Below, piece after piece: positions 18,505 to 64,000 of a stretch of 64,000 nucleotides of DNA. Below the pieces are notes generated by a model. That model was not told where the DNA came from. It worked only from the letters and a program-made list of their open reading frames with translations, and ran no database searches. Both the position numbers and the translations under genes were made by a program. Position 1 is the first letter of the stretch. The number at the start of each line of letters is the position of its first letter. Source of the stretch: Flavobacteriales bacterium (lineage in GTDB: Bacteria > Bacteroidota > Bacteroidia > Flavobacteriales > CAJXXR01); the NCBI GenBank assembly GCA_025210805.1, contig JAOAQX010000003.1:62001-126000 (forward strand). Direction: 5' to 3'.

Positions 18505-21231
18505 TTAGAGTTTATAAATCTTGCCTTTGTAAATAAAGGTTCTATATTGGGTTCCTTTGAGCTTCTTTTTGGCTTTTTTATAGGCAATATCAAAACTTTT
18601 TCCCTTAAATACTGGATAGTGTTTTTTTCCATATTTCCCCATTTCAAAAGGAGTTTTCACCTTATGCTTCCTTGGGGTTTTGGGAATTTTTATTGTTTTA
18701 AAAGCAGGAAAAGTATTTTGATAGTTCTTTTTGATTTTCTCTAATTCATTTAGATCAAAGAAGGGCAAAGAAATTGTCCAATTCATTCTTTCTGGGCGCA
18801 TATTCTTTTGATACACTTCTGCAATTTCTGCTACTTTGGCTTTCGCCAATGTTTTTTTCCAGTTTTTATAATGCTTTGTTTTCCAGTTGAGCATTCCATA
18901 TTTACTCAACTGACTGAGTTTCTCATCTAAAGTAATGAAATCAAATGCTTGCTGATTTTTCACAGCATTAATTAACACAGAATCAGTTGCTAAGTGTTTT
19001 TGATTAAACAAGTTTTTAAAAACCTCTACATTTTTATCCAGTGTTTTGTTGGATGGTTTCGAAAGCTTAGTAAAAACAAGATCATTTTCTCTAGCTTCCA
19101 CTTTCCAGTCTTGATAACCTAGCCCATTTACTTGCAAGTATTTTGCGAAAGTTTTTGGACAAATGATTTGATTCTGTCTCAAAATGGATAAGCTGGTTTC
19201 AAGCGCATGTGTTTCTTTCTTCAAGGCAAGTTTTGCAGGAATATCTTGATCTACCTTTGTTAAGAGTGTATTCTTTTCATTCCATTTTTCTAGTCCTCGA
19301 AAAGCCTTTGCATAAGCTTTAAATGGCAATCTCCCTGTATAGGCAACAATCATCCCATCAGTTCCGAAATATTGTCTATGAAACTGTTTTAGAGAATTAA
19401 TATCCAATACATCTGCAGAGTGAACTACTTGCTTTAAATCAATGAGTTTTTTCTCTGTCAAATGTGGCTGTATAAGTAAATGAAGCAGGGTTTCTATAGC
19501 GGTTTGTGTTGCTTTTTCAGGACACACAAGTCGGAATCTTATAAAATGAAAATCGCTACTTATTTCTAGCTTTGCACCCACTGTTTGTAAAATATTTTCA
19601 TAATCTATCCGATCTAAAGAAATACTTCCACCAGCAATCATTTTTGCGAGTATTTCACTTGCTCCAAAATTATTTTCTTGTTCAAATTTTTTACCCGCTG
19701 GAATCAAAATATCGATTCTATTTACTTGAGAAGCTCTATTGGTTGAACCGATAATTTTTGCTCCATTTTTCCATTTTTTGTGATACAGTGGGTATTTAAA
19801 CTCGTTTTCGATCTCAGGAAGCTGAATTGCCGTGGTTTTATCAATTTTTGAAGATTCTATTTTCCAGTCCTTTTTGTAGTTTCCATTTGCATTGTATACT
19901 TTTAGTGCTTTGGGCTTTCTAAAACGTGAAACACCACTCCAGTTTTCCTTAGTATTTATTCCATAATCTACATGAAAAAGGACTTTTCGTAGGTATTTCT
20001 CTGCAGCATTATCTATTTGTGAAGGTCGGATATGTTGCAACTTTTCATAACGCTCTTGCAAATGGTTAGGATTTTTATAAAACAGGTATCCCTCTGCCAA
20101 AGCTTTCGAAATACTAGGAATACTTTCCTTGTTTTTTAGGAGATCTAATCCATGGTTTTTCTTGAATACTTCCAATGCTTCTAAAGATGTTCCATATTGC
20201 TGAAAACTCATTATACTTGCTTTAAACATGGGTTCGAGAACTTTCAAAGATCGATTTTTACTGACTTTAAAAGTGATTCCAAAAACACCTGCTAGTTCAT
20301 CAATTTCGCTTTTCACTTCAAGTTCAAAGGCAAATCCTTTATCCAATACCCTATTTTTTAAATCGCTTTTTGCATAATCTACCAACACATAAGCAAGTCC
20401 TTCCAATGCCAAGGCATCTTCGGAGGCTTGATCTTCTGTGGGTGCTAGTACGGTAAAACTTTGGTATTTATTTTTAGAACTTGTGATAAATATTTGATCC
20501 TCAATATACCTCATCGGTATTTGATTTCTCTTGAAATAAGGGGTTCCTTTTGGAAGTTCAGAAAAATAATATTCCACCCAGCCTAATGCTTGTTGATACG
20601 AGACATTTCCTACTATTGTAATCACAGCATTATTGGCACCAAACCATCTTGCTTTGTGTTTTTTTATTTCAGATTCAGCGTATAATCTTTTATTTGGTTC
20701 CGAAAAATATGGGTGATTTTTTGGGTAAAAGTCTTTAGGTAAATACGAAGTGTTTTCTATTGGCTTTTTCGCCAATTTACTCTGTGCATTTTTCCACCTG
20801 TCAGCTTCAATTTGTAAAATATTTTCGAGTGCTTGAGATGGGACAAATGAATTAAAGGAAGTATAATCTTTTGTTTGGTAATGATGAGATTTTCCTCCTA
20901 CTTGCAAAAGGGTACTTTCTATTTCCCTTTTATTAAAATTCTTTGAACCTTGTTTCATGGATTCAAAGGTTTGTTGAGCGATTCCCTTGAGATTTGCAGG
21001 ATCGCTAGACGTTCCTGCGTGAAAATGCACACCCACTTGGACAAGATTTCCAAAGGCGGAATTTTCATGTATAATTACACTCAAACCATTGGGTAACTCA
21101 TATCGTTTAAATGGTATATGAGCTTGATAATTTTTTTCTTGACTTTCAAACAAATTTGCTTGGGCAAATACTGGTATAATGCTCAAAAAAGTTAAAATTG
21201 TTATCGCAAATAATTTTCTGATCATAATCAA
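18505..21231 (-). CDS. Secreted M16-family (insulinase-like) protein lacking the zinc motif
   Basis: This 908-residue protein starts with a signal peptide (MIRKLFAITILTFLSIIPVFA). Its two halves show the M16 layout: YELPNGLSVIIHENSAFG near residue 44, then GVHFHAGTSSDPANLKGIA, and a second half with GASEILAKMIAGGSISLDRI. The expected HxxEH metal motif is missing: where it should follow TGxAH the protein reads GIAQQTFESMKQGSKNF (residues 83-99). The helix that carries the third zinc ligand also seems shortened after IEADRWKN (about 141-148). It is therefore probably a non-catalytic homologue, perhaps a chaperone-like or binding partner (inference). A TATCTTTG box lies upstream (complement of 21260-21267). 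Confidence 0.8.
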   Translation of the reverse strand: MIMIRKLFAITILTFLSIIPVFAQANLFESQEKNYQAHIPFKRYELPNGLSVIIHENSAFGNLVQVGVHFHAGTSSDPANLKGIAQQTFESMKQGSKNFNKREIESTLLQVGGKSHHYQTKDYTSFNSFVPSQALENILQIEADRWKNAQSKLAKKPIENTSYLPKDFYPKNHPYFSEPNKRLYAESEIKKHKARWFGANNAVITIVGNVSYQQALGWVEYYFSELPKGTPYFKRNQIPMRYIEDQIFITSSKNKYQSFTVLAPTEDQASEDALALEGLAYVLVDYAKSDLKNRVLDKGFAFELEVKSEIDELAGVFGITFKVSKNRSLKVLEPMFKASIMSFQQYGTSLEALEVFKKNHGLDLLKNKESIPSISKALAEGYLFYKNPNHLQERYEKLQHIRPSQIDNAAEKYLRKVLFHVDYGINTKENWSGVSRFRKPKALKVYNANGNYKKDWKIESSKIDKTTAIQLPEIENEFKYPLYHKKWKNGAKIIGSTNRASQVNRIDILIPAGKKFEQENNFGASEILAKMIAGGSISLDRIDYENILQTVGAKLEISSDFHFIRFRLVCPEKATQTAIETLLHLLIQPHLTEKKLIDLKQVVHSADVLDINSLKQFHRQYFGTDGMIVAYTGRLPFKAYAKAFRGLEKWNEKNTLLTKVDQDIPAKLALKKETHALETSLSILRQNQIICPKTFAKYLQVNGLGYQDWKVEARENDLVFTKLSKPSNKTLDKNVEVFKNLFNQKHLATDSVLINAVKNQQAFDFITLDEKLSQLSKYGMLNWKTKHYKNWKKTLAKAKVAEIAEVYQKNMRPERMNWTISLPFFDLNELEKIKKNYQNTFPAFKTIKIPKTPRKHKVKTPFEMGKYGKKHYPVFKGKSFDIAYKKAKKKLKGTQYRTFIYKGKIYKL

Positions 21232-21390
21232 ATTCTATTAGCATGGATTTTAGGAAAACCAAAGATAAGGTTTTTGGTTTTTAATGGAATATCTCAATCG
21301 ATTATTGACGACTGAAATATCTTTTTTGAAAAGGTAAGTTAATTTGAATTCTTCAATTTGGGAATCTTTTAGAGCCCAAAATATTTCACA

Positions 21391-21422
21391 AACAAAAAGG
21401 TGTTTTATTTCTAAAACACCTT
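21391..21422 (-). terminator. Terminator after the small gene at 21457
   Basis: AAGGTGTTTTA (21398-21408) and TAAAACACCTT (21412-21422) form an 11-bp stem. On the minus strand it is followed by a T-rich run, so it ends the unit containing the gene at 21457-21747. Confidence 0.8.
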
Positions 21423-21456
21423 CTTGCATTAATTAACCTTATTATGAGAAAGACTC

Positions 21457-21978: not shown

Positions 21979-22656
21979 TTATATAAAGCGTTTTTTGAAA
22001 TAATGAAACAAAACTAAATTAGAATACAACATAGAAAAAGCATAAAAGACATCTTCAAAAGGGATCGTTCCTATTCTCATTCCCAAAAATTCTTTAGAAT
22101 GATACCATACTACTGGTTCTGGCAAACCAGTTCCTGTAAGAATTCCATTTACCACAAAAAAGGGAATCAAAATCACTAGAAAAGCGAGTAAAAATCTGTT
22201 TAAATACCTCTTGGTAATCATTAGAGAAATTATAAAAAATATCATGTCAATTCTAGTGTACCATTTATCCCACCCTTTTAATAATAGAAATAAACCTACT
22301 GCTACTAAAAGAAAATGAACGATATCTACCGTTTTTTTAGACAATATCAGTTTTGGGAAATAATATTCTAGAGAAAAGTAGATAAACAAACTGGCATAAG
22401 GAATACAGAAGAAAAACAGCCATTCTTCTAATGGTAAACCAAGAATATGCAAAGGCAAATGATAGTCTTGATTAAATCCCCAAATACCCATTTTAACAAA
22501 AATTGCATCCCAAATAATAAAAATAAATGCAATTATTGTTGTGGAGCACAGAATTGCTTTCCAGTTTTGGATAAACCGCATTCTGGGATGAAAAGAGTAT
22601 AAAAAAGGAATACTAAATGATCCTATATTGAGCAATAAGTACAACCATTGGTTCAT
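21979..22656 (-). CDS. crtY: Lycopene beta-cyclase, fused CrtYc-CrtYd type
   Basis: This membrane enzyme closes the rings of lycopene to give beta-carotene. The 225 residues form about six to seven membrane spans in two similar halves. The first half carries the hallmark LGLPLEEWLFFFCIPY (glutamates at 77-78), and the second the matching GTIPFEDVFYAFSML near residue 196. In actinobacteria these halves are often separate proteins CrtYc and CrtYd; here they are fused, as in other Bacteroidota. Its ATG overlaps the crtZ stop by four bases. It is the last gene of the carotenoid operon. Confidence 0.9.
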   Translation of the reverse strand: MNQWLYLLLNIGSFSIPFLYSFHPRMRFIQNWKAILCSTTIIAFIFIIWDAIFVKMGIWGFNQDYHLPLHILGLPLEEWLFFFCIPYASLFIYFSLEYYFPKLILSKKTVDIVHFLLVAVGLFLLLKGWDKWYTRIDMIFFIISLMITKRYLNRFLLAFLVILIPFFVVNGILTGTGLPEPVVWYHSKEFLGMRIGTIPFEDVFYAFSMLYSNLVLFHYFKKRFI

Positions 22657-23108
22657 TCTTTCTTTTTCTTAAAATATTTAAAAGGGACCATAAGCATCCC
22701 AAAGCATTCTCCATCCTCCTTTTCAATATGCTTGTGATGCATTCTATGTCCTTTTCTTAAACCCTGAAAGTATTTGTTTGTGGTGTGTTTAAGCCAAGGG
22801 AAACGCCCATGAATCATAATATCGTGAACTAAAAAATAAGCAATTCCATATAATAGAATTCCTAGTCCAATAAAAAAACGATAATTGATTTCGGGCTCTA
22901 GCCCAAAGTAAAACAATAAGATACTGGGTATAGCAAAAATAACAAAGAATAAATCGTTTTTTTCGAACACTCCTTGATACTGTGGCTGATGATGATCCTC
23001 ATGCAGATACCATAAAAAACCATGCATCACATATTTATGAGTGAACCATGTTATACCTTCCATGATCAAGAAAGTAATTAATGTTATTCCTATAAAAAGC
23101 CAAATCAT
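22653..23108 (-). CDS. crtZ: Beta-carotene hydroxylase
   Basis: CrtZ adds hydroxyl groups to the rings of beta-carotene to give zeaxanthin. The 151-residue membrane protein shows the di-iron histidine clusters of the family: HKYVMH near residue 18, HEDHH near 36, HDIMIH near 90 and HRMHHKH near 117. Membrane spans lie between them. It sits four bases after an unknown secreted protein and overlaps crtY. Confidence 0.93.
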   Translation of the reverse strand: MIWLFIGITLITFLIMEGITWFTHKYVMHGFLWYLHEDHHQPQYQGVFEKNDLFFVIFAIPSILLFYFGLEPEINYRFFIGLGILLYGIAYFLVHDIMIHGRFPWLKHTTNKYFQGLRKGHRMHHKHIEKEDGECFGMLMVPFKYFKKKKE

Positions 23109-23112
23109 AAGT

Positions 23113-23529
23113 TTATATTTTAAAATATTTCGCCAATTCGTTTTCCTTATCTTGTTGAAGAAAACGGCTAATCATCTCTTTATCTTCTTCTAGGTTTGAT
23201 CGATAACCAACGATTTTAGGGACTTTTTGCTGAATCAAAAATCGGATATATCGTAAATAAATATTTTCTGGATTTTGCTGTATTAAAGATTCCAGCTTGT
23301 TTTTCTCCGATATAAAAATAGCCCATTTTTTCCAAGGTTGCCAGGTATATTCAGCTTTTTTCATCTCTAATGATAGAACAAATGCCTTGTGAGATATAGA
23401 TTTACCTTGATATTTAAGGATATACACTTCCTCTTCTGCCTTAGAAGATAGCTGATGGAATTCTTTCACAAAATCTTGAGAAAAGCTATTATACACTACA
23501 AAATAGAAGACTAAAATGAGATACTTCAT
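23113..23529 (-). CDS. Unknown secreted protein inside the carotenoid operon
   Basis: The 138-residue product opens with a signal peptide (MKYLILVFYFVVYNSFSQ, cleavage likely after SFSQ). Its mature part is helical and charged, with WQPWKKWAIFISEKNKLE near residue 59 and NPENIYLRYIRFLIQQKVP near 85. It overlaps crtB by four bases (ATGA) and precedes crtZ by four, so it is translated as part of the pathway operon. No known enzyme motif is visible. A periplasmic or outer-membrane role in carotenoid handling is possible, but that is only inference from position. Confidence 0.75.
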   Translation of the reverse strand: MKYLILVFYFVVYNSFSQDFVKEFHQLSSKAEEEVYILKYQGKSISHKAFVLSLEMKKAEYTWQPWKKWAIFISEKNKLESLIQQNPENIYLRYIRFLIQQKVPKIVGYRSNLEEDKEMISRFLQQDKENELAKYFKI

Positions 23530-24365
23530 ATCAAATTAAATTGGTGTCTTAAAAAAGCTTTACTTGCAATAATTACTTTATCGGTATTCGATACGCGTAT
23601 TCTTGCCTCCAAAATCCTAGAAGCTTCTACTTTTTTTATTTTCCTCAGAAGTTTTCTATAATATCTATAGGCGGTGTAGACTCCTAATCTGGCTTCAAAA
23701 GGTAGATTTTTAATTCCCTCAAAAGCATGTGTAAAATCAGCTTCTATCTCATCGATAATTTCGTTTTTCTGCTCTGAGCTCAATTGATCAAAGTTAACCG
23801 TAGGAAAATAAGAACGGTTTAATCGGTCTTGATCATCTCTTAGATCTCTAAGAAAATTAACTTTTTGAAAAGCCGACCCCAACTTCATGGAAGATTCTTT
23901 GAGTCGTTCATATTGCTCCGAATCCCCATTTACAAATACCTTCAAACACATTAGCCCCACCACATCGGCTGAACCATAAATATAGGTATTATAAGCCGAA
24001 ACGCTTTGGTAATTACTTTTAGAGAGATCCATTTCCATGGAATCTAGAAAAGCATTCACCATTTCCAAATCTAATTGATACTGATCATAGACTTTTACAA
24101 AAGCATGTATCACAGGATTGATACTTATCTTTCTCTTTTGTGCTCTGTAAAACTCTTCCCTAAACTCTTGGAGCATTTCGGCTTGTGGAAAACCATCGAA
24201 ACTATCTACAATTTCATCGGCATATCTAACGAAACCATAAATGGCATAAATTGCCTTTCTTACTCTTGGAGAAAGTAATCTACTAGCCATAGAAAAACTT
24301 GTAGAATAGGTATTGGTAACTATTTTACTTATTTTTAATGAAGATTCGTCAAACAGTTCTTTCAT
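23526..24365 (-). CDS. crtB: Phytoene synthase
   Basis: CrtB joins two geranylgeranyl diphosphates to make phytoene. The 279-residue protein has both aspartate-rich motifs: DEIVDSF near residue 51 and NFLRDLRDDQDRLNRSYFP near 169. Also visible are YSTSFSMASRLL at the start and YGSADVVGLMCL near 130. Its start overlaps the end of crtI by 17 bases. Family and context agree. Confidence 0.95.
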   Translation of the reverse strand: MKELFDESSLKISKIVTNTYSTSFSMASRLLSPRVRKAIYAIYGFVRYADEIVDSFDGFPQAEMLQEFREEFYRAQKRKISINPVIHAFVKVYDQYQLDLEMVNAFLDSMEMDLSKSNYQSVSAYNTYIYGSADVVGLMCLKVFVNGDSEQYERLKESSMKLGSAFQKVNFLRDLRDDQDRLNRSYFPTVNFDQLSSEQKNEIIDEIEADFTHAFEGIKNLPFEARLGVYTAYRYYRKLLRKIKKVEASRILEARIRVSNTDKVIIASKAFLRHQFNLI

Positions 24366-25857
24366 GGTTCTCTATTTTATGGTTGGTTATATTTGGATGA
24401 TATTTTTGTACTAAACTTGCTACAACTTTTCCTGAGATTATCGCTGGTGGAACTCCAGGACCAGGTACAGTTAATTGCCCTGTAAAGAAAAGGTTCTTGA
24501 GTTTTTTGCTTTTGAGTTTTGGTCGCAAAATATGTGTTTGCATAAGTGTATTTGCGAGTCCATAAGCGTTTCCGCCATAAGAGGAGTATTCCTCTTTAAA
24601 TTCTTTAACACAGAAAGATTCATAAAAAAGAATTTCTTCTTTTAAATCCCTTCCTACTTGTTTTGATAGCCTCGCTAAAATTTTATGTAAATATGTTTTT
24701 CTTGTGCTTTCGTCATCTCCATCTAGGTGGGTTGCTAAAGGAATAAGAAAAATACCAGCTTCATTACCTTCGGGTGCTACTGTGGAATCTGAAATACTAG
24801 GAAAACTCGCGTAAAACAAAGGCGATTTTGGCCAAGATGGATTCCCATATATACTCTGAATATGCTCGTCAAAATCCGTATCAAAAAACAAAGTATGATG
24901 TTCTAAGTTAGGCAATTTAGCTTTAAAACCAACATAAAATAACAGAGCCGAAGGTGCGAATGTTTTATTTCTCCAATAAGCATCGGAATACTGGCGAAAT
25001 TTTTTAGGAATTATTTGTTCCGTAAAATGATAATCGGCTCCGCTAATGATAATATCTGCATAAAAAACACTTTCATCTTTTAATGAAATCCCAATGGCTT
25101 TTCCTTTTTTTTCAAGGATTTGATTGACTTGTGCATTTAAAATAAACTTGACGTTTAAATCTTTTGCTAGTCTGTACATTCCTTGAGCAACTTCATACAT
25201 TCCTCCTTCAGGATACCAAGTTCCTAATCCAAAATCTGCATAGTTCATAAAATTGTAAAAACTAGGCGTTGTTTTGGGCGTGGCTCCTAAAAAAAGAATT
25301 GGAAATTGTAAGATCATCCTTAATTTCTCATCTTGGACCACTTGAGACACTTGCTTGGCAATTGTCTGAATAAAAAGAGGTAATTTCGTTGCCGTTTTAC
25401 CATTGATAATTTCGAATAAATTTTCCCCAGGTTGATATACTAAATCCTGGATTGCTAATTCATAGTTTTCTTTTGCTTTAGCAATAAATTTCTTAAGCTT
25501 CGCTCCACTACCCTTTTCAATTTCTTCAAATTTTTGGGCAATTTTATCTAAGTGATCTTCAATGTCTATAACTTCTTCATTTTCAAAAATCACTCGATAA
25601 GCTGTTGCGAGCTTATTGAGTTCATAAAAATCATTTGTGCTTCGTCCGAAATCTTCAAAAAACGCATCAAATACATCTGGCATCCAATAGAAAGTAGGTC
25701 CCATATCAAAGGTGAACCCTTCCTTTTTCAATTGCCTTGCTCTTCCGCCTACATAGTTTTGCTTTTCAAACACAGTAACCTGATAACCCTCTTTAGCAAG
25801 GTAACAAGCTGTAGATAGAGAAGAAAAGCCTGCACCTATTATAATTACCTTCTGCAT
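24349..25857 (-). CDS. crtI: Phytoene desaturase (lycopene-forming type)
   Basis: CrtI is an FAD-dependent desaturase that converts phytoene to lycopene. The start at 25857 (MQKVIIIGAGFSSLSTACYL, 502 residues) places the dinucleotide-binding GAGxxxL motif at the N-terminus; the longer frame from 25890 begins inside the promoter dyad. The C-terminal CrtI signature, with LFFTGQLTVPGPGVPPAIIS, is clear. It is the first gene of crtI-crtB-unknown-crtZ-crtY, which together would yield zeaxanthin. The promoter carries a striking inverted repeat (25860-25889). No MerR-type regulator gene is nearby. Confidence 0.95.
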   Translation of the reverse strand: MQKVIIIGAGFSSLSTACYLAKEGYQVTVFEKQNYVGGRARQLKKEGFTFDMGPTFYWMPDVFDAFFEDFGRSTNDFYELNKLATAYRVIFENEEVIDIEDHLDKIAQKFEEIEKGSGAKLKKFIAKAKENYELAIQDLVYQPGENLFEIINGKTATKLPLFIQTIAKQVSQVVQDEKLRMILQFPILFLGATPKTTPSFYNFMNYADFGLGTWYPEGGMYEVAQGMYRLAKDLNVKFILNAQVNQILEKKGKAIGISLKDESVFYADIIISGADYHFTEQIIPKKFRQYSDAYWRNKTFAPSALLFYVGFKAKLPNLEHHTLFFDTDFDEHIQSIYGNPSWPKSPLFYASFPSISDSTVAPEGNEAGIFLIPLATHLDGDDESTRKTYLHKILARLSKQVGRDLKEEILFYESFCVKEFKEEYSSYGGNAYGLANTLMQTHILRPKLKSKKLKNLFFTGQLTVPGPGVPPAIISGKVVASLVQKYHPNITNHKIENHERTV

Positions 25858-25859
25858 TC

Positions 25860-25889
25860 TGTTACGTTTATTATCAAATATACGTAACA
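25860..25889 (-). promoter_or_regulatory. Carotenoid operon promoter with a dyad around the -7 box
   Basis: TGTTACGT (25860-25867) and ACGTAACA (25882-25889) are perfect inverted 8-bp arms 14 bases apart. Between them, on the minus strand, lies TATATTTG (complement of 25875-25882), an exact TAnnTTTG -7 element. The crtI ATG is only a few bases downstream. A dimeric regulator on this dyad would cover the promoter core, so the site is a good operator candidate; the regulator is unknown. Confidence 0.65.
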
Positions 25890-26076
25890 ATTTTAAATAA
25901 TCATTCTATTTTTCGATGAGATACAAAAAATCTTTCTTTGCGTATTTTGACAAAACCATTCCCATGTACATTTCCTCTATGATCTGAGTGGGAAAGCATA
26001 AGAAAATCAAAACAAATCACTCACTGGTTTAGCTTTTTTTCTCATCTTTGATACTTAATTGAACCCATCATTTTAT

Positions 26077-48271: not shown

Positions 48272-51200
48272 CTAAAACATAAAACCGGTGCTTACTGTTA
48301 ATAACTCTTCATTTTCATAAAAAGTATAACCTCCTCGGATAATTAGTTGATCTAAAATACCGAAATACATTCCTAAACCATAAGAATGATGCCATTTTTT
48401 TGATTCCTCCTTGTCTTGCCAAGTTCTTGCCAAATCTGTATAGGCAGTAAAACCAAAATCGAAAGGAACTACATAATTAGGCACTTTTAACAAACTTGTT
48501 CTTAGCTCTAGGGAATTAAATTGCATAGATCTCCCAGAAAAACGATTTCTATAAACGCCTCTAAAATTTGTTTGACCTCCCAAAAAATGGCTCTGAAAAA
48601 AGGAGAAATCTCCAAAATTCTTTGCAAATCCAGATCTAAACGCTAAAGTTGTTTGTTTTTTCCTGAAATTTAATGGAATAAATAAACGGAGCTCAGATTT
48701 TAACTCGAAAAAAGAATAATCATTTCCAGAAATATCTTGACTCCACTGCCCTGAAGTATTAAACACAAATCCTCTATGTGGGTTTGTTACATGATCCATA
48801 TTCTCGTAGGAAAAACCTACCCCAAGTCCTAAATTTGTTTGACGACTTTTCCAGTGATGACTAAAACTGTCATGGATTCCTTCTTGATGTCTGAAATGAT
48901 TTAAACTCGAAAATATTTCTAATGCGCTTGCATAATTTGATATCGGGATTATCAAACTAGGTTTCCATCTAATTTTTGAAAGCCGTACCCATGCTTCGGA
49001 GTGCTCATCTTTATCTATAAACGGAGTTTCGTTTCCTATTCCATGGAAATCAAAAAACTGCGGTAATCTTAATGATAAATCAGACTCAAAATCTGCTTGT
49101 CCAATGATATCTGTATAGGTAAAAGTATAATCGGCTCGCCATCCATCCTGTCTATTGATCGATTTTCCCAACACAAATTTATGTCTTTGCTCAAAGGGTT
49201 CTTTTTTAAATCCATGCTTGGTATAAACAAAACCTGCCCCCAGATAAAATCCATCATCGGGATTTCTACCAAGACTCAAAAGCGGTGCAAGACGATTGTA
49301 TCTAAAACCTCTTCGGTTATAGTCAATATGCTCAGGCTCATTCTTGATAAATAGCTTAGATTCTTTTCCTAGAGAGAACGCATTCTTAGAGGATGTTTCG
49401 TAGATTTTTGTATAATTTCTCCAACCTTTAACAGTAGAATTATCCTCTATTTTATCTTTTTTTGTACCCCCTATAATCCTCACGAGAATACTTTTATTAA
49501 CAGATCCTTCAACGATATATTCGTCTTTCCCATCTAAGCCATACAATCTTATTTCTTTGGTCTCTTCTGTATTAAAAATGCGTTTATAGAAAGCTTTTGT
49601 AGCGATACTTTTGTCTTTTTTTATATTGAAAACTGACACCTCCACTTCCCGGTCATTCATTCTTTTCACTACAAATTTTTCGCTCCCGAAAGTTCCTATA
49701 ATATCTACTTGTTTTGACAGAATTTCATAATATTCCTTCACAAAATGAGCTAAATTGTTTCTTCTTGCCTTCAAGATGTCTTTCAGTTCGTTACCATGCA
49801 TTTCTTGTGACGCTTTAGGTAATTTTGAAATAGATACCTCGATTACAGAATCTGTAATAAAACTTTGTAGATTTTCGACCTGCAATAACCAATCATTCAA
49901 TGTTGCCTGAGATAAAAAAGCTCTATCAAAATATCTCGCATTAAAATTAAAACCTTCAATACTGATAATTTCTTTTTTAAATGGCTGAAATTTTGGCATT
50001 AAAGCTCTTTGCCTAGTAAGGAAAGGTAATACTCCATCAAATCTAAAAAAGACTTGATCTCTATCTCTAGGTATAGGTCTATATATCGTTTTCTTACCTT
50101 TCTTAAAAGTCGCCCATCTCCACTGATCATCATGACGATCCCAATCTCCAATAAGCATATCAAAGATTCTTGAACGCAGAGTAAAAGGTAAATCTATTTG
50201 ATGTTTTGTTGAGTTTTGAATTTTCTTTATCGCCTTAGAGTAACTGATGACTTTCTTGCTATTTCCAAAATTTGAAAAAGCTTCCATATTATTATCTGGG
50301 CGTTCTTCAATGATTGCGAGCATTCCACCAAATTCATCAATATAATCTCCTAAAATAGCATCTTTGGGAACATAAACTAACTCCGGATTACTATAATATA
50401 TTTTAGCTGCATTTGCAAGTGGCGGAACAGCGAGTGCGGCATAAGGATGAGCACCAGCCATACCTTCATAAATGATATCTTGAGCGATCGTTCCTCTTAA
50501 ATTTCTTTGAGTTAGGAATTCCGTATTTTTTTTAATTCCTCGTAGAGAATATTGTAAACCATTGGCTCCTTGAAGTCTCAAAGAAATAGTTTGCATTCCT
50601 CCCCCTTTTTTAATGGGTGTTAAACCTCCTGCTTTGTTATGTATATCTAGTACAGGAACCTCTATCTCTGTTGCCCAAAGATCTCTATACATATCACCCA
50701 TCAAGAATCGCTTCATTTTTCCACCTTGGTAAGTGGAATCCGGTGTCACCCGCATGACTTGATTTGCATAAGATATTTTAACCGCATTCCCTTTTAGGGC
50801 TCCCAAGTTTTTAATCTCTTTAGTAAATAGTTTTCTATTAAAAACCTCTACCATTTTTCCCTGTTCATTGAGTGCATAAAAGCTTACCCAAACTGCTCCA
50901 TTTGCAAAGATTTTTAATTTAGAATATCCTTTATTACTTGTTCCAAAATCAATTTTCCTATTTCTTTTTAAATAAGTTCCTTTACTTCCTGCACCACTAA
51001 TGATATGATGAAAATTATCTTTTTTGGTATATTGTAAATTATGCTCATGCCCAGAAACATAGATAATATCATCATACTCATTCATCGCTTGAGAAATTTT
51101 TCTTACAAAGTCTCGATAAACAGGATGAGCAATATCTTGCCTATGCCCTAAGAACTTTCTATACCCAGGATAAATACTCCCCAAAACGGGTAATGGAACA

Positions 51201-51967
51201 TAAGCATTTTTTGATAACTCGGTAAGTGGAAACAAATGGTATTTTAATGGAAAATTCCCTCCATGTTTTCCATTACTCACCAGAGGATGATGGCCTGCTA
51301 CAATGATTTTTTTATTTCGATGTTTTTTCAGTTGTTCTTTAAAACTAAAAAGTAATTCATCTGTATTTCTCACGGAACAATCATCGGCCTCTCCATTGGG
51401 TTTTTTGTGAGGATGCAACCACCATTGTGTATCTAAGATGATCATGACTAAGCCTGGGGATAATTCTCGAACTTCGGGACCAGGGCAACCTTTACTAGGA
51501 AGAAATACATCGCCTTTTTGAAGGTATTTTTCTATAAATCTTTCTTGACGCTTTACTTGCTTCTCTCCTTTTTCTCCTTGCCTTTGCCAATCGTGATTTC
51601 CTGGGATAAAAAAGAGATCTGCTTCTACATCTTTCAATAAGTCTAACTGAGCGATGATTCTTTCTTCGTCTTGTTTTCTTTCAGGATGATCTTTTTTCCT
51701 CAATCCTACGGGGTAAATATTATCCCCTAAAACGACTACTCCACATTTTCCGTTTGCAGACATTTCTTTTACCATAGGAGAAAAAACTTCTGAAGATTCT
51801 GTGGGACTTTCTCCTGCATCTCCTACCAAGTATAACTCATATACTAATTCAGAACCCTCATCGGGAATGATTTTGTTCTTTAATTTGGGGTTTATATAAA
51901 CCAATGAACCCGTATTACAAGAGATCATAAACAGAAAAATACTGATATAGATTCCTATTTGCTTCAT
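48272..51967 (-). CDS. Secreted metallophosphatase, kinase-like segment and Omp85-like barrel in one protein
   Basis: This 1231-residue protein has a signal with a possible lipobox (FLFMISC) and three parts. First comes a calcineurin-like phosphatase (about 40-360) with VGDAGES, LGDNIYP, PGNHDW, GHHP and GHEH. The middle (about 440-800) includes FDMLIGDWDRHDDQWRW with DRH at 610-612 and IPRDRDQVF with aspartates at 635 and 637. This pattern resembles the catalytic and metal loops of CotH/HipA/Fam20-type kinases (my inference). The end (about 900-1231) is a BamA/TamA-like beta-barrel with LGGQTNFRGVYRNRFSG and a final phenylalanine. It overlaps the propeller gene by four bases. Confidence 0.8.
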   Translation of the reverse strand: MKQIGIYISIFLFMISCNTGSLVYINPKLKNKIIPDEGSELVYELYLVGDAGESPTESSEVFSPMVKEMSANGKCGVVVLGDNIYPVGLRKKDHPERKQDEERIIAQLDLLKDVEADLFFIPGNHDWQRQGEKGEKQVKRQERFIEKYLQKGDVFLPSKGCPGPEVRELSPGLVMIILDTQWWLHPHKKPNGEADDCSVRNTDELLFSFKEQLKKHRNKKIIVAGHHPLVSNGKHGGNFPLKYHLFPLTELSKNAYVPLPVLGSIYPGYRKFLGHRQDIAHPVYRDFVRKISQAMNEYDDIIYVSGHEHNLQYTKKDNFHHIISGAGSKGTYLKRNRKIDFGTSNKGYSKLKIFANGAVWVSFYALNEQGKMVEVFNRKLFTKEIKNLGALKGNAVKISYANQVMRVTPDSTYQGGKMKRFLMGDMYRDLWATEIEVPVLDIHNKAGGLTPIKKGGGMQTISLRLQGANGLQYSLRGIKKNTEFLTQRNLRGTIAQDIIYEGMAGAHPYAALAVPPLANAAKIYYSNPELVYVPKDAILGDYIDEFGGMLAIIEERPDNNMEAFSNFGNSKKVISYSKAIKKIQNSTKHQIDLPFTLRSRIFDMLIGDWDRHDDQWRWATFKKGKKTIYRPIPRDRDQVFFRFDGVLPFLTRQRALMPKFQPFKKEIISIEGFNFNARYFDRAFLSQATLNDWLLQVENLQSFITDSVIEVSISKLPKASQEMHGNELKDILKARRNNLAHFVKEYYEILSKQVDIIGTFGSEKFVVKRMNDREVEVSVFNIKKDKSIATKAFYKRIFNTEETKEIRLYGLDGKDEYIVEGSVNKSILVRIIGGTKKDKIEDNSTVKGWRNYTKIYETSSKNAFSLGKESKLFIKNEPEHIDYNRRGFRYNRLAPLLSLGRNPDDGFYLGAGFVYTKHGFKKEPFEQRHKFVLGKSINRQDGWRADYTFTYTDIIGQADFESDLSLRLPQFFDFHGIGNETPFIDKDEHSEAWVRLSKIRWKPSLIIPISNYASALEIFSSLNHFRHQEGIHDSFSHHWKSRQTNLGLGVGFSYENMDHVTNPHRGFVFNTSGQWSQDISGNDYSFFELKSELRLFIPLNFRKKQTTLAFRSGFAKNFGDFSFFQSHFLGGQTNFRGVYRNRFSGRSMQFNSLELRTSLLKVPNYVVPFDFGFTAYTDLARTWQDKEESKKWHHSYGLGMYFGILDQLIIRGGYTFYENEELLTVSTGFMF

Positions 51968-58650: not shown

Positions 58651-61600
58651 TTATTTAAGAACATTGATTTTTGTTCTCATGACTTTATTAGTCAATTTGT
58701 CTCTTAGGACAACTTGGTAAAGACCGTTAGTCATTTCACTTAAATCATATTCTACAGAAGTTTGATCTTGGTAAGCGTCTTGTTTAACGATTTGCCCTAG
58801 TGGGTTGTAAACTGTGATTTCGAAGTCTGTGATAGACGATTCTACATCGATATTTACAATTCCATTTGTAGGGTTCGGATAAACTGTTACCTTACCTTCT
58901 TCAAGATCTTCTAATCCAGTAGTACAGTCTTTCAGGATGATTTTATACGTTTCCGTATAGTTTGTATCCTGAGCTGTTACCTCGATGATTGCTGTATCTC
59001 CAATTGCTGCAAAATTCTGAACGAAGTTTATGGTAGATGTCGCTTCTTGAGCTGTAGGAGTCAACGTAGGAATAGAGTTAATGTTTACAACTTTATCAAT
59101 ACACCACTCATATAGGAATGTATTAGGATCAAAAGTTGCCGTAACATTATTCGATCCAGCATCGATTAATCTACCAAACGAACCTGTTATACCAGATAAT
59201 AGTGCATTTGTGTTTCCATCCTCGAAGAAGAAGTTAATGAAATACTCTTTCTGAGTAGTCATATTCTCAGCAAGTACGGTTACCGTGGCTGTATTGTTCG
59301 CTATTGTTACATAAGCTGTATCAACATCAGGATCTGAAGTTACCCACGTGATTGGTGGAATAGATGCTCCATAAGCTAATGTATCATAGTTGTAAGTATA
59401 AACCGAAGAATCAAATCCTGTGATTGTTGTTCCATCAACTAATAAGTCTGATAAGAATGCATTATCACTAGCAACTTCATTGATAACTACTGTGTACGTG
59501 TTTGTAACATTCGTATCTTGAGCTGTAACCACAATAGAAACCGTTGTTGGGAACGTTGTAATCGTTCCTGAAGGTGTCATTGTATAACTCGCCAATGAAT
59601 TTGCTAAATGAGGAAGTACAGTAGCTGTAGCTCCATTTGGTACCGTGTACGTATAGTTGTACGTTGTTGAATCGAATCCAATTACCGAGTTACCGTTCAC
59701 TTGAATATCAGATAAGAACGCATTCGCATTTGGTGCTTCTTCATTCACAATTACCATATACTGCATTGTATAATTTGGATCCTGCGCAGTTACATTTGCA
59801 TAAATAGTATCTGGTAAGGTAGTTCCCGGAGCCAATTGACCAATTAGTGTATTAGACAAATTAGACGATGCTGTTCCAGTGAAGGCACCAAAGTTTGTTG
59901 TACCATAAGGTACTGTAATTGTGTACTGAGTAATTGTAGAATCAAATCCTGCGATTGTGTTACCTCCATAAGATAAATCAGATAGATAAGCATTTGTATC
60001 ACCCGGAGTTACTTCAAAGTTCACCGTATATAGTAAGCTAAACGCAGTATCTTCTGCAGTAACTTCTACAGTTGCCGCACCAGGTAATGCTGGAGCTTGA
60101 TCTACATCAATATCATCTACAATAGGTGCATTATATACAGCAGATACATTAGGAATATTTGTTGTTCCGAAAGGTAACATTACTGTATAATTCAATGTAT
60201 CAGGATGGAATCCAGGTACAGTGATACCATTATAAGTAAGATTTGATAAAGTAGCATCTGTATAAGGAACATGTTCCTTAATCTCTATATTATCAACTCC
60301 AAATCCTTCAATTGGGTTACTGAAAGATGTTCTAAAGTAGAATCTAAATCTCACATAAGGCTCACCTGCTAATCCTGTGATTAATGCTCCTGCATCTGTC
60401 CAAGTATTAGAGGTCGCAAAGTTATTTGAGAAATTATTTGGTTGCATATCTACTGTTGTCCAACTATTATCATCAGTGGTATATTGAAGTCTTGCATAGT
60501 GAGAGCTAAACCCTGATACTGGTGTTGTCATGATATAATCCATTGAGATTTCAACATCTGCTGTATATCCAGAGAAATCATAACATGGAGACAATAAATA
60601 TGAATCTTCATTTAATGCTGCATTGGTATCCAATTTAGTTACCCAAGCTTTTCCTTGAGTACCTTGAGCCATATTCGCCGTAGTTGGAACACCCCACTCC
60701 CATGAGTTTGTAATCCCTTGGATAATTCCAGATGTCCAACCTTCTTGAGTTACATCAAAATTATTATTTGATGCAGTGTCTTGAGGAATACTTACCACTG
60801 TTGCAGTTAAAGTATTATTTTGAGCACTAGAATCAGCTGGGAATAATACTTGGAAACTATAAGTGTAATTTCCTGCTGTTGACATATCCACTGAAGGTAA
60901 AGCTGCCATAGCAGTAGCTCCAGGAGCCAACGGAGTTGTAAATGTATAAACATCTGTCATTGGAGATCCATTTACACTATACTGGATAGATGCTCCAGAA
61001 GCCGAAGTTACTGTGTCATTTCCATGATTTTTAAAGCTTACATATCCTATTTCAGATGCTGATAATCCACAAGCTGAAGATACTGAATCAAAAGAAATGA
61101 TTGCTAAATCATTATCAGGACAAGCGTTAATTGAGAAGTACTCTAATGCCTCTAATTGATCTGTTCCTGGTGGCACCACAGTAGGATCATCTGGACTTTC
61201 TCCATTATTGTTTATGATAATATTTCCAAAACATTGTGAAACTTCATAAGTACCAGAGTTCCATCCATCACCATAATCATCCCAAGCCTCAAAGCTATAT
61301 ACTACTCCTTCGAAAAGACAAACATCATAAGTGTATCCATCTGTATAGTTACTATAACCATTTGGTTGAGCTACATTAAACACTGTATTTCCAGCAGCCG
61401 TATCGATAATATTCCACCAATATTCACCCGCGTAGTTTCCTGTGTTAATTACAATTTGAACTAGTGCATTACCTTGATTCGTGATATCTTGATTATCCAC
61501 ATTGTTATTTGTATCAGCGTCATTCGTTTGAACAAGCTTAATGTAGATTGTTGAATCTTGTGCCGAACTAAAGTCGAAAGTGTTAGTTAATGTATAAATA

Positions 61601-64000
61601 GCTGATTGACCAGAAGCAATGGTATCTGGGTACGTACTATCTAGCATATATGTTGTATCATCCCAGCTATAGTACACATCGAAACCAAATGCTGGTTGAC
61701 CACCATTATTCGAAATTCCAATAATAACTTCTTCAGAAGCTGTTAACATACATCCGTTATCATCAGGACTAATCACTCCATCTAATACAACATCATAAGA
61801 TGCAGGTGTAGTAAAAGTCTCAGCAAATGTCCAAGTAGAATCACAAGTATTTCTTACGATAAACTCATAAGTCGTACTTGGTAGTAATCCTGTAATATCA
61901 ACCGTTGCACCTGTCAGTACTGTAGTATCTGGCGTATAAGTAAATGTATCACCTGCAGTAATATTGATCCACTCAAAGTCAAATTGAGAGTTTAATGAAA
62001 GTGAAGATGCATTCAAGGTTGCTGAAACATCTGTTAAGTTTGTTACATTAAGATTCACTGGTGTAGCACAGCTATCCATTTCTTCCCATGAAACATTATC
62101 TATATGAATATAGTTATAAGTTCCGTTTTCTTTTAATCTAAATGCAATATACTTATCTGTTCCTGTATAATTAGCAAAACCATACTCAACTTCTTGGTAA
62201 GATGTAGAAGTTGATGGATAAGTTGCTAACTCTGTAAATGTAGCAGGGTCAGTATTATCTGTCATCGTTCCCAATTGAAGAGTTCCAACTGGTCCATAAG
62301 CTCTTCTATAGTTGAATACTAGCTTTCTATCACCACTATTCATATTAGACAGTTCAGGTGTTATTGCAAGAACTTCTTCATTATTAGCAGAACTACTGTG
62401 GTATAAACGAACCGACTTAGAACTTGATTGAGCATATCCATTATAGATCGCACTGGTAACGAAACCTGATGGAGCATTTGCAATAAATGACCAACAAGGT
62501 GCTCCATTTTCAAATCCTTCGTCTAAAGAATCTTGAGCAGTACATGCGGTAGTAAAATCAACACCATTCAGCATCCAATCAGATTGAACGATACCACAAT
62601 TTGTTAAGAAATAAATTTCATATTGTGAGTTTGGATTCAGTCCTGAAATGGCAAAGTTTGTTGAAGTAATCGTATCTGTAGCAACACCAGTTACTGATTG
62701 ACCAGCTGTTAAGTTTACAATTTCTGCAAACCACTCCGTATCGGCAGTATCAGCAGGAGTAAATGATCCAAAAACAGTATTTGCATTAGCACTATCTACA
62801 ACTACATTCGTTGGTGGATAACATGTAGGAGCAATTTCCCAAATTACATCATCCATATATACATCAACACCATAAGATGAATTCCAGTCATAACGGAAAG
62901 CGATTCTTGTTCCTTGGAAGTTTGGATAATCAGATGGTTTAAAATCATATTTTGTATATGATGAACCTGTTACTGTAATCGTTTCAAGTTCTACAAATGA
63001 ATCCTCATCCGTAATATCTGTAATATATCCTACTTCAATTTTTCTAACATGTGAACTTGAGTTATAACTACCTCTCAACCAGAAAGTCATCCACTTATCT
63101 GAAAGTGAGTCAAGCTCTGGAGAATAAAGAATCATATCAGGAATCAAACTACTTGATTGAGATCCGTGATCGAAATCCATTTTATATGAACCAGATTTTG
63201 CAGAATATTGAGTAATCTTAATAGATGCATTTGACGAAGCAGGAACATTTGCTAATATAGATCCCCAACAATTTGGCATGTCTGCACCATTTGCATTATC
63301 GAAGTTCTCTGTGAATGAGGTGAAAATACCACAATCTGTATTAAAGCTAACTGATGGTCCATTTACGGTATCTGAAGTACAGTACGTTGTCAAAGACATA
63401 TTATAAGAAGTACTTGACATTAATCCTGTAACTGTAAAAGGTGATGCTGTTGCAGTACCTGTAACAGTATCTGTTAAATCTGCTGAAATAGCTTCATAGT
63501 AGAACGATTGTGATTGATCTGCAACATCAATAAAGCTAAAGTTAGCTGTGGTAAGCGTTGCTGAGTCAAAAGTTAAGCTGAATGCTGGCTCACAAGTTGA
63601 GAAAGAGCGTACTCCAATATTATCAACAAACATGTTTGCTCCAGTATATGTTCCTCCAGAAGTTTTTCCTGCAGTAAATCTAAATTTCAAAGTTTGCCCA
63701 ACTAATGTAGTAGGTAACAAAACTAATTTTTCTTCCCAAACATGAGGGTTTACCGCATTGGTAAAAGAACTAGAAGTAGATGTAGATAAATCTTCATTTT
63801 CTTGTAACCAAAGGTTTGTCCATGTTGAACCACCATTTGTAGAATACTCTATTTTTAAAGAAGTGTTTGCTGTACCAGAATACTTAGTATTTGCTACATC
63901 AAAATGAAGGTAACCACCTGTTGAGTAATTTACTTCGGCAGTTGTAAACCAAATTGGCGTTTGTGTAGAAGTCATATAACGCGTAGGAGCTCTCATAGAC
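58651..64000 (-). CDS. Giant multidomain cell-surface protein with T9SS sorting domain, partial
   Basis: The frame is open to the window edge, so the N-terminus is missing; the ATG at 63996 is not a credible start. About 1780 residues are visible. They include two MAM-like/choice-of-anchor segments ending VDVYMDDVIWE and YIHIDNVSWEE, fibronectin-III-like domains between them, then DUF-like regions with many Asp/Thr/Asn. A row of cadherin-like beta-sandwich repeats follows. The C-terminus is a type A T9SS sorting domain (VTVYPNPTNGIVNID near 1705 and a final KVMRTKINVLK). The protein would cross the outer membrane by type IX secretion and stay on or leave the cell surface, perhaps as an adhesin (inference). 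Confidence 0.9.
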   Translation of the reverse strand, partial: SMRAPTRYMTSTQTPIWFTTAEVNYSTGGYLHFDVANTKYSGTANTSLKIEYSTNGGSTWTNLWLQENEDLSTSTSSSFTNAVNPHVWEEKLVLLPTTLVGQTLKFRFTAGKTSGGTYTGANMFVDNIGVRSFSTCEPAFSLTFDSATLTTANFSFIDVADQSQSFYYEAISADLTDTVTGTATASPFTVTGLMSSTSYNMSLTTYCTSDTVNGPSVSFNTDCGIFTSFTENFDNANGADMPNCWGSILANVPASSNASIKITQYSAKSGSYKMDFDHGSQSSSLIPDMILYSPELDSLSDKWMTFWLRGSYNSSSHVRKIEVGYITDITDEDSFVELETITVTGSSYTKYDFKPSDYPNFQGTRIAFRYDWNSSYGVDVYMDDVIWEIAPTCYPPTNVVVDSANANTVFGSFTPADTADTEWFAEIVNLTAGQSVTGVATDTITSTNFAISGLNPNSQYEIYFLTNCGIVQSDWMLNGVDFTTACTAQDSLDEGFENGAPCWSFIANAPSGFVTSAIYNGYAQSSSKSVRLYHSSSANNEEVLAITPELSNMNSGDRKLVFNYRRAYGPVGTLQLGTMTDNTDPATFTELATYPSTSTSYQEVEYGFANYTGTDKYIAFRLKENGTYNYIHIDNVSWEEMDSCATPVNLNVTNLTDVSATLNASSLSLNSQFDFEWINITAGDTFTYTPDTTVLTGATVDITGLLPSTTYEFIVRNTCDSTWTFAETFTTPASYDVVLDGVISPDDNGCMLTASEEVIIGISNNGGQPAFGFDVYYSWDDTTYMLDSTYPDTIASGQSAIYTLTNTFDFSSAQDSTIYIKLVQTNDADTNNNVDNQDITNQGNALVQIVINTGNYAGEYWWNIIDTAAGNTVFNVAQPNGYSNYTDGYTYDVCLFEGVVYSFEAWDDYGDGWNSGTYEVSQCFGNIIINNNGESPDDPTVVPPGTDQLEALEYFSINACPDNDLAIISFDSVSSACGLSASEIGYVSFKNHGNDTVTSASGASIQYSVNGSPMTDVYTFTTPLAPGATAMAALPSVDMSTAGNYTYSFQVLFPADSSAQNNTLTATVVSIPQDTASNNNFDVTQEGWTSGIIQGITNSWEWGVPTTANMAQGTQGKAWVTKLDTNAALNEDSYLLSPCYDFSGYTADVEISMDYIMTTPVSGFSSHYARLQYTTDDNSWTTVDMQPNNFSNNFATSNTWTDAGALITGLAGEPYVRFRFYFRTSFSNPIEGFGVDNIEIKEHVPYTDATLSNLTYNGITVPGFHPDTLNYTVMLPFGTTNIPNVSAVYNAPIVDDIDVDQAPALPGAATVEVTAEDTAFSLLYTVNFEVTPGDTNAYLSDLSYGGNTIAGFDSTITQYTITVPYGTTNFGAFTGTASSNLSNTLIGQLAPGTTLPDTIYANVTAQDPNYTMQYMVIVNEEAPNANAFLSDIQVNGNSVIGFDSTTYNYTYTVPNGATATVLPHLANSLASYTMTPSGTITTFPTTVSIVVTAQDTNVTNTYTVVINEVASDNAFLSDLLVDGTTITGFDSSVYTYNYDTLAYGASIPPITWVTSDPDVDTAYVTIANNTATVTVLAENMTTQKEYFINFFFEDGNTNALLSGITGSFGRLIDAGSNNVTATFDPNTFLYEWCIDKVVNINSIPTLTPTAQEATSTINFVQNFAAIGDTAIIEVTAQDTNYTETYKIILKDCTTGLEDLEEGKVTVYPNPTNGIVNIDVESSITDFEITVYNPLGQIVKQDAYQDQTSVEYDLSEMTNGLYQVVLRDKLTNKVMRTKINVLK
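58920..60265 (-). repeat. Tandem cadherin-like beta-sandwich repeats in the T9SS protein
   Basis: Five to six degenerate protein repeats of about 80-90 residues share the pattern A-x-LSDLxxxGxTIxGFDSxxxxY, then a YTVPxGTT-like strand and TVTAQDTNxTxxYTVxI at the end. They fit the cadherin-like beta-sandwich family (PF12733 type). The repeat units are similar in sequence but not identical, so the tandem array is old. Confidence 0.8.

Follow-up and report, generated by a model that had tools for sequence, protein, structure and literature searches.

The locus considered here raises the question of whether a gene for a full-length homologue of M16 peptidases, in which the zinc-binding motif of the family is replaced, encodes a protein retained for something other than cleavage, or is instead a gene in the course of decay. 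It lies within the window, i.e. the whole stretch of 64,000 nucleotides of DNA that was analysed, and comprises the following features.

18505..21231, minus strand: putative single-chain M16 pseudopeptidase gene, recognised by its open frame, Pfam M16 domains and neighbour-like codon usage.
21157..21225, minus strand: signal-peptide-like N-terminus, MIRKLFAITILTFLSIIPVFAQA, residues 3-25 counted from TTG, by eye.
20962..20976, minus strand: site of the zinc motif, residues 86-90, where HxxEH is replaced by QQTFE, from ungapped alignments.
20713..20805, minus strand: shortened stretch EADR..HPY, residues 143-173, from alignment length compared with relatives.
19396..19440, minus strand: cut second-half counterpart of the third-ligand stretch, residues 598-612, from alignment and profile.
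19099..19122, minus strand: Leu704 and Val711, aligned to the Arg/Tyr pair of the relatives, from the MAFFT alignment.
18508..18735, minus strand: basic C-terminal tail of about 75 residues, net +22, from length and charge.

The reading frame provides 908 open codons when counted from TTG, and the gene is in this respect as intact as the sequence-only reading had stated; an ATG at 21225, two codons past the TTG, appears by eye to be the likelier start and would give a product of 906 aa. Residues are numbered from TTG throughout, such that ATG-based numbers are lower by 2. The N-terminus ends in AQA and, again by eye, resembles a signal peptide. Codon usage is ordinary (0.662, compared with 0.635-0.728 for 21 genes of the window), and GC3 is 0.268 compared with 0.214-0.288 in 21 window genes. 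A Pfam search with the whole protein returned Peptidase_M16 (E 6.2e-19, in two stretches) and Peptidase_M16_C (E 5.5e-20), both above the curated cut-off, and the two domains place the protein in the M16 (insulinase) family, taken as a fold family. When the second half was searched alone, Peptidase_M16 was recovered at E 1.2e-8 and Peptidase_M16_C at E 0.056, which is below the cut-off, the last domain being matched poorly. Peptidase_M16 is therefore recognised in each half, as had been proposed from the sequence, and the protein aligns over its full length with single-chain relatives, indicating that both halves reside in one polypeptide.

In alignments of up to 79 long single-chain rows the zinc-motif block is ungapped, with GIAQQTFESMKQGS in the protein compared with GFAHFFEHMMFQGS in the relatives. 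Within it GFAHFFEHMMF of the relatives becomes GIAQQTFESMK, and the replacement of HxxEH by AQQTFES that had been reported earlier is reproduced letter by letter: in going from AHFFEH to AQQTFE, the changes H86Q, E89F and H90E replace both zinc histidines and the catalytic glutamate. The third zinc ligand of M16 is a Glu located in helix alpha4 of domain 1 (PMC12731061, in part). The stretch from EADR to HPY, where this ligand is expected and where a shortening had been suspected, comprises 31 residues compared with 51-53 in 79/79 aligned relatives; the column of the third-ligand Glu falls in a gap, and the protein does not qualify as an M16 zinc peptidase. A shifted or hidden intact zinc motif was considered also. 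The whole protein was scanned for HxxE/D+H/N/Q/D, HExxH and HxxxH, and none was found, which rules out such a motif. With the catalytic glutamate, both histidine ligands and the stretch for the third ligand all gone, it seems likely that catalysis has been lost as opposed to shifted, and the protein, a homologue of M16 whose gene is intact but whose catalytic residues are missing, fits the class of M16 pseudopeptidases, its inactivity being predicted from these replacements.

The loss of residues extends past the zinc site described in the sequence-only reading, the second half being trimmed also. The counterpart of the third-ligand stretch there comprises 15 residues, compared with 50-55 in 79/79 rows. 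A profile built from the second halves of 12 active relatives matches the protein piecewise (profile positions 1-121, 162-217 and 312-406), with positions 122-161 lacking a counterpart in the protein and 218-311 unaligned. When the same profile was placed on the first half of the active-type protein L132, positions 100-161 fell on the segment that contains the VILEE glutamate, and because of this placement the piece missing from the second half can be regarded as the counterpart of that missing from the first. The last domain is shorter in its first part also, with 81 residues compared with 108-111 in relatives. The substrate-binding Arg/Tyr pair, which is conserved across M16 except in MPP and the bc1 cores (PMC12731061, in part), aligns to Leu704 and Val711 and is absent here, an assignment that comes from MAFFT only since the profile alignment leaves this region unaligned; a crude search pattern for it likewise failed on 8 rows in which HxxEH is present. 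Of the 88 columns in which the 79 relatives show at least 97% identity, the pseudopeptidase keeps 33, mainly glycines, prolines and the HPY block, and has lost 55, among them the R/Y pair, H86, E89 and H90 and, at 116-119, the NG.T strand.

Loss of HxxEH is rare among the relatives examined. HxxEH is present in 82 of the 83 ORFs of at least 850 aa that were picked by the second-half profile (86 such ORFs were scanned, the 3 unmatched ones not being M16 by sequence), and in 30/30 additional relatives that belong to other orders of the class. Combined, 111 of 112 distinct long M16 genes keep HxxEH, with the pseudopeptidase as the sole exception, a count that is no census since the relatives were chosen by match to the protein or to the second-half profile. 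The total of 112 is of distinct genes, that of G075 standing twice in the first set and twice in the 79-row alignment; the latter leaves out L132, L050 and L051, and the L131 and L133 loci contain no ORF of at least 850 aa. Searches for relatives covered 99 relatives and draws, which overlap, of 395 genomes of the order, 395 of the phylum and 395 of the class. Among the matches listed, no close orthologue was found, identities were 20-33%, and the best match, from the class draw, had an E of 6.0e-43 and 27% identity over residues 4-596. In the other orders of the class, matches from 30 of 31 genomes were examined (G1027 being left out), and all 30 were active-looking. One other genome of the same family (83% complete) gave a half-size match only, and a scan of genome contigs with the single protein returned one distant split-type locus.

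In three trees of the first half, the pseudopeptidase grouped with the single-chain against the split type with support of 93, 97/98 and 100/98, respectively, a placement that concerns one very long branch. This branch measured 2.75, 3.11 and 4.79 changes per column, compared with medians of 0.25, 0.23 and 0.24, or 11-20 times the median of the relatives. The position lies outside the single-chain crown, beside that group in the first and third trees and between the single-chain and split types in the second. The best reading of these trees is that the protein derives from the phylum's single-chain M16 peptidases of roughly 950 aa, the apparent point of origin varying from tree to tree.

These data bear on the possibility that the gene is decaying, in which case the zinc site would have been lost, selection relaxed, and the frame by chance not yet broken. 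The occurrence of the pseudopeptidase in one genome only, its long branch, the loss of 55/88 near-invariant positions and the several deletions are consistent with decay, and trimmed segments may arise in this way as well as by remodelling. However, the 2.75 to 4.79 changes per column across 908 codons without a stop or frameshift would be hard to reconcile with neutral drift, codon usage is ordinary, and the deletions are in frame and at matching places of both halves. Decay is considered unlikely on these grounds, and the earlier view that the loss of catalysis is functional can be retained in a weaker form: the 908 open codons, the ordinary codon usage and the long branch without a stop make it likely, and no more than likely.

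In M16 enzymes an inactive half is paired with an active one, and the sequence-only reading had remarked on the lack of an adjacent active partner. Indeed, no second M16 gene was found in the window or adjacent to the pseudopeptidase gene, the others all being on other contigs. The genome does contain the active M16 genes that the same reading had proposed to look for, there being five active-looking genes with HxxEH, on C4, C34 (two), C1 and C7.

Contig C4: exported split M16 pair, 451 aa with HFFEH and an adjacent 691 aa.
Contig C34: M16 pair, 431 aa with HLFEH and 443 aa.
Contig C1: M16 gene of 412 aa, HFVEH.
Contigs C34 and C7: M16 genes of 992 aa, HYLEH.

A string HFPEH in the 443-aa C34 gene precedes its M16 domain and was not counted as a zinc motif. 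A profile search showed that an active single-chain member of the same type is absent from the pseudopeptidase's own genome, the best match being the 691-aa C4 partner. The protein could feasibly be a regulatory or structural partner of an active M16 enzyme of the genome, for example the exported C4 split pair, given that active M16 genes exist there and that bacterial M16B enzymes operate as active/inactive pairs (PMC12731061 and PMC11266112, both in part). However, a partner gene of its own already adjoins the active gene on C4, and the pseudopeptidase holds both halves in one chain and is encoded by a gene unlinked to any M16 gene, leaving a partner role quite improbable. The earlier argument from pairing stands in so far as inactive halves do pair, but does not carry over to a chain that has both halves, as its active relatives do; since one chain holds both halves and needs no completing partner, the missing M16 neighbour is no puzzle. 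That the old scaffold now houses a peptidase with another mechanism or another metal site has nothing positive in its favour and is scarcely credible, as no HxxEH, HExxH or HxxxH occurs anywhere in the protein and neither the catalytic Glu nor the R/Y pair remains.

The charge of the protein also sets it apart from its relatives. The mature chain has a net charge of +49 and a pI of 9.63, compared with a median net charge of -17 (range -75 to +12) and a median pI of 5.55 in the 79 relatives, and it has the highest net charge among 29 window genes. A net charge of +27 remains after removal of the last 75 residues. The C-terminal stretch comprises 79 residues, compared with a median of 20 (range 0-68) in aligned relatives, and no match to the tail was found in Pfam, PHROGs, PDB sequences, phages, plasmids or the protein's own genome. 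When predicted alone the tail gave a pLDDT of 67, and a structure search returned no significant PDB match. An AlphaFold2 model of the full-length protein, made with a two-sequence alignment, has a pLDDT of 36 and a pTM of 0.26, values too low to show the fold of the scaffold, the last 46 or so residues of the tail having values of 79-88 within it. As a separate observation, the 691-aa member of the split pair (L047, 2285-4357, minus strand, G000:C4) is also basic, with a net charge of +24 and a pI of 9.44.

Taken on balance, the protein is probably a lineage-specific, exported, single-chain M16 pseudopeptidase that keeps the two-half scaffold and acts by binding. The lack of a close orthologue among the matches listed, the low-confidence full-length model and the poor match of the last domain weigh most against certainty here. 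The protein would be exported by the Sec route, would adopt the two-half M16 fold with no zinc bound, and would cleave no peptide; selection may have kept it for binding, although this step is the weaker one. The remodelled interior or the basic surface would then hold a peptide, a protein or an anionic component of the envelope, and the role would be that of a chaperone-like holder or scaffold. There is precedent for binding without cleavage, in that IDE continues to bind amyloid peptide, and to block fibrils, when its catalytic Glu is substituted (PMC3623905, in part), and further pseudopeptidases are reviewed in PMC11266112 (in part). A more specific version, offered tentatively, is that a protease chamber formed of two halves has become a dedicated holding device, an exported clamshell that binds an anionic ligand uncut. 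The stretch lining the catalytic site would have been removed in both halves and the substrate-binding pair dropped, and charge would have been inverted and a basic tail added; an acidic peptide, a nucleic acid or an envelope glycan are candidate ligands. On this version, the equivalent cuts in the two pseudo-symmetric halves would be a sign of remodelling as opposed to decay.

The known M16 pseudopeptidases are mainly subunits of half size, which serve to complete an active partner, and a protein with both halves in one chain but without the zinc site, the third ligand and the substrate-binding residues is not explicable as half of an enzyme. The closest known proteins are the Bacteroidota single-chain M16 peptidases of about 940-1040 aa (for example L081, L083 and L146), which likewise have two halves in one exported chain and provide the best matches (E down to 6.0e-43). 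Conversely, these peptidases keep HxxEH and the third-ligand stretch, with the R/Y pair present in nearly all aligned rows, and are typically acidic whereas the pseudopeptidase is basic. MPP alpha, the bc1 core proteins and the inactive subunit of the Sphingomonas zinc peptidase (3amj_B, which matched at E 0.14) likewise have the M16 fold without a working zinc site, the R/Y pair being absent as well from MPP and the bc1 cores (PMC12731061, in part); however, MPP alpha, the bc1 cores and 3amj_B are half-size and pair with another chain. Bacterial FusC and PqqL, of M16B, likewise have two linked halves in one exported chain (PMC12731061, in part) but are active zinc peptidases, PqqL being a weak match (6oft_A, E 0.00064). 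Members without HXXEH occur also in Cryptosporidium parvum, where ten of 22 M16 members have the motif (PMC8092296, in part), although these are eukaryotic and the likeness is in motif loss. With the terms used, no paper on a single-chain bacterial M16 pseudopeptidase was listed in the open-access library searched. The protein would offer a natural test of the M16 scaffold when it only binds, a question already raised for mammalian IDE by the chaperone-like inactive mutant (PMC3623905, in part). There is a lesson for annotation also, in that the automatic name insulinase family peptidase would mislead for this protein.

The surroundings of the gene were examined for indications of its role. 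Downstream of it are bL31 and then rpsF, rpsR and rplI (identified by eye, rplI by Pfam), and upstream is a small frame without a Pfam match, followed by lycopene cyclase and phytoene synthase. The genes rpsF, rpsR and rplI occur together in 8/8 of the relatives' 9.5-kb stretches, and an M16 gene occurs in 0/8 of these stretches. The ribosomal-protein and carotenoid neighbours give no functional hint. A match to the Bacteroidota -7 box, TANNTTTG, is present at 21260-21267 on the strand of the gene; since the window contains 99 such matches compared with 91 expected by chance, it carries no weight and was rejected as evidence of a promoter. A sigma-70 promoter scan likewise remained at chance level. 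A hairpin followed by a T-run is visible by eye at about 21390-21425, after the small upstream frame, and is absent from the terminator scan. Elsewhere in the window, positions 21979-25890 (minus strand) hold the carotenoid genes, comprising lycopene cyclase, phytoene synthase and an amine-oxidase-type desaturase-like gene. Positions 58651-63996 (minus strand) encode an acidic protein of 1781 aa (pI 4.05) that carries fn3 together with a C-terminal sorting domain for type IX secretion; the 5' end of the gene may extend beyond the window. At 48272-51967 (minus strand) is the gene for a protein of 1231 aa in which a calcineurin-like phosphoesterase domain is joined to an Omp85 outer-membrane barrel.
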